Made by a program: the position numbers and the translations under genes. This document shows positions 1,716 through 5,310 of a stretch of DNA of 20,431 nucleotides, in pieces. Position 1 is the stretch's first letter. Each line of letters begins with the position of its first letter. The stretch is from a virus, in IMG/VR virus record IMGVR_UViG_3300010885_044655, positions 1-20,431 of that record; one strand, written 5' to 3'. The notes below the pieces were generated by a model, which was not told the DNA's origin, did not search any database, and was given only the letters and a program-made list of their open reading frames with translations.

Positions 1716-1828
1716 GGTGATCAGCATGGTGGGAACATGCAGTCTTGAGAAGAGTCGTACCAGCGTAAAACGGTATACTGTAAATCAACCGACAAAGCTG
1801 GAAAATGGGTTCGAATCCCATATCACCA
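1716..1828 (+). ncRNA. Oversized tRNA-like element
   Basis: The 3' part is a perfect tRNA half: T arm ATGGG-TTCGAAT-CCCAT (1805-1821), then ATCACC and A. The 5' end GGTGAT (1716-1721) pairs with ATCACC, followed by a D-like hairpin GCATG..CATGC (1724-1740). The interior is not standard. A weak arm carries loop TTGAGAA (1745-1751), which would read as anticodon GAG (Leu). A large arm CCAGC..GCTGG (1760-1801) encloses CGGT..ACCG with loop sequence CTGTAAA, also the tRNA-Tyr anticodon loop. At 113 nt it is too long for an ordinary tRNA. It may be a degenerate class II tRNA-Leu, a tRNA carrying an insert, or a tRNA mimic. Confidence 0.45.
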
Positions 1829-2329: not shown

Positions 2330-2646
2330 TTGGTATTGTTGATATTGGATTGAAATGCGTACAAGACGGGGGTTCGAATCCCCCCGACTCCATTAGCCTA
2401 ACCGAAGGATACTGCAATTCCTGAGAGATGGCGAAACCAAGTCCCCACAGCAGAGGGGCAATACCCAAAGTCCTAGGCTTTGGGCCAAGGGGTCGAAAGG
2501 AATAGATTGGCGCAGAGTAATGAAGAAGGAGATACCCGACACGGGTAACAAGTGTCGTAAATAAACAGTTGCAAAAATTAATTGCCAACCAAATGGCAAT
2601 GGCTGCTTGAAGCAGTGGGGATTGGTCTCCCGCATCTGAATCGACC
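2330..2646 (+). ncRNA. ssrA: Circularly permuted (two-piece) tmRNA
   Basis: The acceptor piece comes first: T arm GGGGG-TTCGAAT-CCCCC (2368-2384), then CGACTCC and A (2385-2392), with no CCA. After an intervening segment (hairpin CCCAAAG..CTTTGGG, 2464-2484) comes the coding piece, starting GGGGTCG (2489-2495), which pairs with CGACTCC. P2 is CGCA/TGCG (2511-2514 with 2356-2359) plus TAAT/ATTG (2518-2521 with 2349-2352). An H-type pseudoknot follows: ACCC/GGGT, whose loop GACAC (2538-2542) pairs with GTGTC (2552-2556). The tag frame ends LIANQMAMAA at TGA 2608, and the stop sits in hairpin CTGCT-TGA-AGCAG. The resume codon is uncertain; the in-frame sequence from 2557 is VNKQLQKLIANQMAMAA, but spacing from the pseudoknot favours a start near 2566-2572. 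tmRNA rescues stalled ribosomes and tags products for proteolysis. The outer ends are approximate. Confidence 0.85.
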
Positions 2647-2647
2647 C

Positions 2648-2667
2648 AAGGCTCCTTCGGGAGCCTT
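2648..2667 (+). terminator. Hairpin terminator after tmRNA
   Basis: AAGGCTCC-TTCG-GGAGCCTT is an 8-bp stem with a stable TTCG tetraloop just after the tmRNA. The following bases (GTTACTTG) are only moderately U-rich, so it may act as a terminator or as a 3'-end processing or stability element. Confidence 0.65.
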
Positions 2668-2681
2668 GTTACTTGACTAGC

Positions 2682-3816: not shown

Positions 3817-5310
3817 TTATTTAAGAAAACCAGCGTTTTCTTCATAGCCTTTTCTCATCGGATGATCAATGGGAACTGGTTTGAGTTCTACTCTTGTTTT
3901 TAATGATATACCAGGATCCGTAACATTATGTGGTCTGGATTTTACAAATCCGGTTTTTGAAGTGGATCCCCAATCTCTTATGTTACCAGTGAGAGTAAGT
4001 CCAATTGTTTCTGCCAATTTTGAATGTCTTCTATATAATGGTGTATTTCTTCTTCTAGAAGAAGATACTGCGTGTAAACCATTTTGATCTCCTGCCAAAA
4101 TTAAATCACCTTTATTTTCTAATTCTTTTTGTGCACCAGTTTCTGTTAATTTTTGTACAGATCTTTTATCAAGAAGGCCACCAAAAGCGGTTTTTAATAA
4201 AGATGGTTTACTGGCGACTTCAGATTCTCTTTTATATCTTGCGGCAATCGCATTTAACATAGTTTGACCTAAACCAAATATTGCTCCATGATGTGAAGGT
4301 TTTGATTTTCTGGGTTTACTAGGAGAACTTTTTTTTAATTCAATTCCGCCATAGATTTCATCATCATGTTTTACATAGGCATCATGTCCGTGGCCTTCAT
4401 TAGGATTTTCTCCTACATAAAAAGTACCATGTTGCAATGATTTATGAAATTCTTCTAATTTTTTTTGATCCATTCTAGTTTTCATATCTGGTGATTTTAC
4501 TCTACGAAAACCTTTTTTTTCAAGGTGTGTTGCGAATAAATCATGTACATTTTTTCCAGTTAAAGTAGTTGATTCTTTTAAAAAAGAATCAAGTCCATAT
4601 TCTTCTTTTAAACTTCTTGGTTTGAGTTTAATCCAATGAATATCGTTGGTTCCCGTATCTGGATCCACAGATCTCAATGCAATATGGCCTTCAGGATTTC
4701 TTCTTTGATATCTTTGAATGTATTTCTTAGTTTCGCTATATTCATCATCAGGAATATCTGTCCATGCTTGAGCACCTTTGAATCTTCTCAACTCTTCTGG
4801 ACAAACATCAAACATTTCACATTTATCCATGCCTTTCAGAATAGGTCCTCGTCTTTGCATAGGTGCCATAGGAAGATCATTTCCAGAAACGCTTCCAGTA
4901 TTGTATCCGGGTGAAGATGCTGGTGTTCCCATTCCCGCTGAACCCATGTCCTCACACAAAGCAATGTAACTGACATCTGCATAACCATTCAGAGCGAGAT
5001 ATCCTTCAACTAAACCAGCATATTCTACTTGAGTTATTCCAATATGCTCCACTTCCTCACCAAATAATTGTAATGTGCTCAAATAATTGTTTAATCTTGC
5101 CTTTGTCATGCCAGAAGGCAATTCTTCGAATATTCTTTTTAATTTTATAATCAAATATTCAAGTGGTTCAATGCTGCTTTCTGGTTTAATGGCATTACCA
5201 TTAGCATCAATACTACCTGCTTTGAATGCCTGTAAAGATGTATAAGGTTCTGAAATTCCTTGGGCAAATTTATAAAAATAAAATGATGGGATGTATTGTG
5301 GTGATGTCAT
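3817..5310 (-). CDS. Large hypothetical, possibly virion protein
   Basis: This 497-residue protein is not recognised. Residues 1-25 (FYFYKFAQGISEPYT) include I-S-E, matching the (L/I)-x-E rule for T4 head-protease cleavage, weakly. A Gly/Ser/Pro-rich linker lies near 120-155. The central part has HDLFATHLEKKGFRRVKS and a segment HGHDAYVKHDDEIYGGIELKKS whose D..E-x-K spacing faintly recalls PD-(D/E)XK nucleases, followed by a Lys/Ser/Pro stretch. The C-terminus is basic and low in recognisable motifs. Its start overlaps the upstream stop (ATGA), so it is coupled to the 73-aa gene. It is the last gene of the long minus-strand block. Confidence 0.7.
   Translation of the reverse strand: MTSPQYIPSFYFYKFAQGISEPYTSLQAFKAGSIDANGNAIKPESSIEPLEYLIIKLKRIFEELPSGMTKARLNNYLSTLQLFGEEVEHIGITQVEYAGLVEGYLALNGYADVSYIALCEDMGSAGMGTPASSPGYNTGSVSGNDLPMAPMQRRGPILKGMDKCEMFDVCPEELRRFKGAQAWTDIPDDEYSETKKYIQRYQRRNPEGHIALRSVDPDTGTNDIHWIKLKPRSLKEEYGLDSFLKESTTLTGKNVHDLFATHLEKKGFRRVKSPDMKTRMDQKKLEEFHKSLQHGTFYVGENPNEGHGHDAYVKHDDEIYGGIELKKSSPSKPRKSKPSHHGAIFGLGQTMLNAIAARYKRESEVASKPSLLKTAFGGLLDKRSVQKLTETGAQKELENKGDLILAGDQNGLHAVSSSRRRNTPLYRRHSKLAETIGLTLTGNIRDWGSTSKTGFVKSRPHNVTDPGISLKTRVELKPVPIDHPMRKGYEENAGFLK

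Follow-up and report, generated by a model that had tools for sequence, protein, structure and literature searches.

A phage-borne circularly permuted tmRNA gene with a conserved and exchangeable folded RNA in its intervening sequence

The permuted tmRNA gene and its surroundings

The window, i.e., the whole 20,431-base stretch of the virus record analyzed here, carries a tmRNA gene of the circularly permuted (two-piece) type between approximately positions 2332 and 2646 (Table 1). ARAGORN in permuted mode made a call spanning 2302–2701, and the Rfam family tmRNA_permuted (RF04321) matched the window with 73.5 bits (E 1e-12, cut-off 47), which makes the gene a member of that family. As in RF04321, the 3' acceptor and T arm come before the 5' acceptor, and acceptor pairing between the two pieces is backed by covariation. 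The nearest subtype among the older clade models tried on the window was the betaproteobacterial RF01850, of which the gene is not a member at 46.7 bits (cut-off 84), and the alphaproteobacterial RF01849 gave no match in the window and at most 28 bits, under threshold, in relatives. Taken together, there is good support for a permuted, two-piece tmRNA carried by a phage. The sequence-only reading had correctly recognized this gene, its parts and their positions as well as the fact that the phage carries its own tmRNA, the source being a virus record; ARAGORN in permuted mode, which it had proposed as a check, bore it out, as did RF04321, and the betaproteobacterial and alphaproteobacterial models that it had also named did not.

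Table 1. Features of the tmRNA locus and the nearby tRNA-like RNA in the window.
Feature	Position	Strand	Basis
Free-standing tRNA-like RNA (module 2), ~112 nt, 132 bits, beside tRNA-Tyr	1716–1827	+	model match, covariation
Acceptor piece: 5' strands of P1-like and P2 helices, T arm, 3' acceptor, discriminator	2332–2392	+	sequence, ARAGORN, Rfam, relatives
T arm GGGGG-TTCGAAT-CCCCC	2368–2384	+	sequence
3' acceptor CGACTCC	2385–2391	+	sequence
Discriminator A	2392	+	sequence
Intervening sequence (module 1), 96 nt, conserved and folded, predicted not to be part of the mature tmRNA	2393–2488	+	comparison with relatives
Module 1, helix GCC/GGC (2396–2398 with 2430–2432) capped by hairpin with loop CUGCAA (2412–2417)	2396–2432	+	covariation, RNAalifold
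Module 1, second hairpin; loop GCAG (2450–2453) pairs with CUGC (2412–2415)	2441–2459	+	covariation
Module 1, optional third hairpin CCCAAAGUCCUAGGCUUUGGG	2464–2484	+	8/11 pairs with two-sided changes
Coding piece: 5' acceptor, D-loop, P2 3' strand, pseudoknot, tag, stop hairpin, second pseudoknot	2489–2646	+	ARAGORN, Rfam, covariation
5' acceptor GGGGTCG	2489–2495	+	sequence
H-type pseudoknot ACCC/GGGU and GACAC/GUGUC	2534–2556	+	sequence
Tag frame ANQMAMAA and stop UGA	2584–2610	+	ARAGORN, relatives
Stop UGA in loop of GCUGC-UUGAA-GCAGU	2608–2610	+	sequence
Pseudoknot-like fold after tag: GUGGGG/UCCCGC; loop GGUC pairs with GACC (2643–2646)	2615–2646	+	sequence, relatives
Terminator-like hairpin AAGGCTCC-TTC-GGGAGCCTT	2648–2670	+	read from sequence

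Proteins compared with a view to the host resemble those of T4-like cyanophages and others at less than 60% identity. Relatives were gathered from public viral contigs by means of neighbouring proteins and two DNA patterns, and 69 distinct tmRNAs were extracted; all relatives are metagenome contigs, of which many are near-duplicates. This set was chosen on pairing at all seven acceptor positions, which limits the weight of the acceptor comparison, although the filter admitted any standard pair; G3-U70 was nevertheless present in 69/69. This pair is the classical alanine identity element. Acceptor pair 4 was GC in 53, UA in 11, CG in 3 and AU in 2 relatives, and pair 5 was CG in 45 and UA in 24; the pairing of the two acceptor strands, whose covariation in relatives the sequence-only reading had named as the point on which it would stand or fall, is thus compensatory. 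The T arm and the P2-like helix (UGCG..CAA/UUG.CGCA) likewise covary, and two-sided pair changes were detected in stem 2 of the H-type pseudoknot. CCA is encoded neither in the window nor in the relatives examined, as had been noticed from the window.

An eight-codon tag ending in AA and followed by a stop was found in 69/69 relatives. GCC at 2584 is the most likely resume codon, which gives the tag ANQMAMAA; the reading LIANQMAMAA proposed earlier holds for these eight codons and for the stop in a hairpin loop, and its first two residues are not conserved, IK or TK preceding the tag in other relatives. Tags elsewhere include AAPMRMAA, ANQLAMAA and ANELAMAA, and all 69 relatives keep the end [M/V/I]-A-A. 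The suggestion that the MAMAA end alters proteolysis as compared to the host tag is therefore weak: the betaproteobacterial consensus tag ANDEHFAMAA of RF01850 also ends in AMAA. What had been described as an unusual resume region turned out to be a conserved hairpin over tag codons 1–6. In the window, the start of the tag, resume codon included, lies inside the hairpin AUUGCCA/UGGCAAU (2582–2600), which is kept in most relatives, and another group of relatives has a different hairpin, CCGCA/UGCGG. Since the hairpin differs between groups and pairing is kept, the tag codons appear to be chosen to pair.

The T run of the hairpin that follows the gene is too weak for the terminator scan. In many relatives, L010 and L013 among them, a T run comes directly after stem 2 of the post-tag pseudoknot (CCCGGUUUU/AAAACCGGG); there the pseudoknot may double as terminator, and the window has a separate hairpin after it. 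A small, very basic protein (MPNSKQRVTARHHRKRKNRIRNNRHK...) is encoded directly downstream of the tmRNA at 2692–2880, with a promoter-like site between; it had no Pfam or PHROG match, and for the neighbouring 99-aa gene no cultured relatives were found.

The intervening sequence and its exchange

The sequence-only reading had treated the spacer between the two pieces as empty and thereby missed the most unusual property of the gene, namely that this spacer is conserved and folded. Among the 43 phage tmRNAs with the long intervening form (903 pairs), the mean pairwise identity of the intervening sequence, hereafter module 1, was 0.77. The acceptor piece reached 0.87 and two parts of the coding piece 0.83 and 0.76, with the flanks at 0.28 and 0.32. 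A hand-made five-helix structure had 88.6% of cells paired, whereas sliding it by 1–3 columns left at most 45% paired; 16 pairs showed two-sided changes against a shuffled mean of 9.0, and 0/500 shuffles reached this number. RNAalifold, blind to the hand-made structure, returned the same main helices. The case for module 1 rests on such comparison, because single-sequence folding of the window copy was not unusually stable (z -0.5; two relatives reached -3.1 and -2.3). Letters required by the search pattern are not to be taken as evidence of conservation, but L100, L104, L109 and L119, which were found without that pattern, keep the fold with some of the required letters changed. In L104 the pair in the first helix is swapped to GGC/GCC. 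The CUGC/GCAG loop-loop helix is mostly invariant, with C-G replaced by U-A on both sides at one position in L100 and L119, hence its support is real but thin. The third hairpin is missing from the 71–73 nt forms described below. A fixed pairing of its loop UAGGC with GCCUA was considered and dropped, as L104, L109 and L178 alter the loop and lose the pairing. Conservation near the level of the tmRNA itself, together with compensatory changes, indicates selection on the RNA fold; judged by sequence comparison, module 1 is not filler but a selected, folded RNA, in which two hairpins pair through their loops and a third one is optional.

The slot between the pieces differs in length among the 69 relatives, namely 5–6 nt (n = 11), 31 nt (n = 1, a deletion remnant in L126), 71–73 nt (n = 7), 95–99 nt (n = 43) and 122–173 nt (n = 7). 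Module 1 is dispensable, since the relatives with 5–6 nt spacers lack it, and these also do without encoded CCA. In the 122–173 nt form, module 1 is replaced by an unrelated tRNA-like RNA (module 2), which consists of an acceptor-like stem, a hairpin with a 7-nt loop, a small hairpin, a long anticodon-like arm and a T-like arm. Module 2 also occurs free beside tRNA-Tyr, in the window (Table 1) as well as in other relatives (e.g., L013:1735-1847), and further copies were found at L145:8649-8760 and L107:5326-5481; in the stretches examined, no locus with module 2 combines a free copy with one in the slot. Two-sided changes were detected at 12 of its 29 predicted pairs, many of which split embedded from free copies and may thus represent few events. 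It had no Rfam or cultured-phage match and was not called by ARAGORN. Another unusual tRNA-like element, GCGTAG...AGGGTGCAAGCCCCT..CTACGC, lies between tRNA-Gly and tRNA-Tyr in L107 (about 5078–5162), and likewise in L108 and L115, with no ARAGORN call.

In a tree calculated from the tmRNA without its slot, 10 changes are required for the long form, of which well-supported branches impose 7, and at least 3 for the tRNA-like form, counts that intragenic recombination could inflate; the minimal form is one clade. The slot is, as far as these alignments tell, a cargo site, and its content is retained, replaced or lost separately from the tmRNA.

Every occurrence of module 1 that was detected lay within a tmRNA: patterns located it in 37 and 47 viral stretches, its covariance model matched 28 times over 66 loci, and 24 whole viral records gave no copy outside a tmRNA. 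No cultured relatives were found. A 20-base pattern search over GTDB genomes returned 7 stretches, none of which fitted the module 1 model and which were taken as chance, and 369 gammaproteobacterial genomes gave 0 matches in a search run without positive control.

Discussion

We consider it probable, at roughly 80%, that the gene is a functional phage-encoded permuted tmRNA whose intervening slot holds an additional phage RNA as cargo. Following the tmRNA literature, the precursor would be cut at A2392 and G2489 by two enzymes of the host, RNase P and a nuclease that processes tRNA 3' ends, after which CCA would be added and alanine loaded, with both pieces remaining paired. A search of 12 phage records, namely the window and 11 relatives of 88–238 kb, gave no SmpB gene, so that SmpB would have to come from the host, and a compatible one is assumed; together with it, the tmRNA would rescue stalled ribosomes during infection and append Ala-ANQMAMAA. 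The idea that the gene is an inactive remnant, a chance pickup from a host or an inhibitor is highly improbable. Phage tmRNAs can be inhibitory, as with the DS6A tmRNA, which lacks a tag (cited in PMC11915505), but here all 69 relatives retain the alanine identity pair, the tag and the stop, and several helices show compensatory change.

The transcript probably gives a third RNA, i.e., module 1 released from the slot. As an RNA with a free-standing life occupies the same slot, the slot most likely carries RNAs with functions of their own and module 1 is probably released. Our leading guess is that module 1 works in trans as a stable small RNA of the phage, against which speaks the fact that it was never seen outside a tmRNA. 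Somewhat short of an even chance, and hence tentatively, we propose that these tmRNA genes are RNA cassettes, in which processing frees a conserved third small RNA and phages exchange the slot content (module 1, the tRNA-like RNA or nothing).

The main rival, which we hold unlikely, is that module 1 acts in cis by aiding the pairing of the acceptor strands or by presenting the precursor to RNase P and the 3' nuclease. Such a role would matter because CCA is not encoded, and it would fit with module 1 lying exactly between both processing sites every time and never being free-standing. However, the 11 relatives with 5–6 nt do without module 1 although CCA is likewise unencoded, the bacterial relative L182 has 4 nt after an encoded CCA, an unrelated tRNA-like RNA fills the same slot, and by eye no conserved complementarity to the tmRNA body was observed. 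Less probable still is that modules 1 and 2 are selfish or neutral passengers of a tolerant slot: repeated gain and loss and deletion remnants such as the 31-nt form of L126 would be in line with this, yet conservation near that of the tmRNA and the compensatory changes point to selection on the fold, and there is no mobility gene.

That module 1 is a self-cleaving ribozyme performing its own cutting is very doubtful. Despite its compactness, its loop-loop pairing and its location between the cut sites, no Rfam family matched in the intervening sequence, ribozymes at relaxed thresholds included. Moreover, the ends left by ribozyme cleavage are unsuited to CCA addition unless repaired. A by-eye likeness to twister was likewise rejected, there being no Rfam match at relaxed thresholds and the CUGCAA-enclosing hairpin being unfit for twister.

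The intervening sequence of two-piece tmRNAs is viewed as a spacer that is discarded, whereas here selection on it is near the level of the tmRNA and structured RNAs are kept or exchanged. Were this spacer set free in one piece, genes for ribosome rescue would at the same time be sources of unknown phage small RNAs.

Comparison with known systems

Permuted tmRNAs encoded by phages are a kind already published and not new here. Two-piece forms made up 53 of 133 distinct phage tmRNA structures in 2022 (PMC9004378), and the tmRNA database of 2025 holds 79 phage sequences, all forms together (PMC11915505). The gene described here resembles RF04321 and RF01850 in gene order, T arm, G-U acceptor pair, pseudoknot, tag frame and stop in a hairpin. 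As compared to RF01850, with which it has the tag end AMAA in common, it lacks encoded CCA, has a shorter tag (8 codons) and reaches 46.7 of the 84 bits, and its folded intervening interval of 96 nt contrasts with the about 4 nt after encoded CCA in the bacterial L182.

Phage Melnitz and other two-piece structures (PMC9004378) represent phage-encoded permuted tmRNAs like the one described here. The tmRNA of Melnitz is, however, alphaproteobacteria-like and encodes CCA, and its long intervening sequence had no match to the module 1 model (L147). At about 46080–46250 of that record (MZ577097), an intervening open frame (MFKWLSKTRLVV...) runs into the coding piece; it may have a ribosome-binding site and had no Pfam match.

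The conserved folded intervening RNA that is exchanged or deleted among related viruses appears to be new, as it was not described in the open literature searched; papers elsewhere could describe it. Permuted tmRNAs with intervening cargo were reported in PMC11915505, one with an intact tRNA-Ala and one with a repetitive element. Those were reported as single cases, whereas here a conserved, covarying module is present in dozens of phage contigs and, furthermore, is swapped for an RNA that also exists free-standing.
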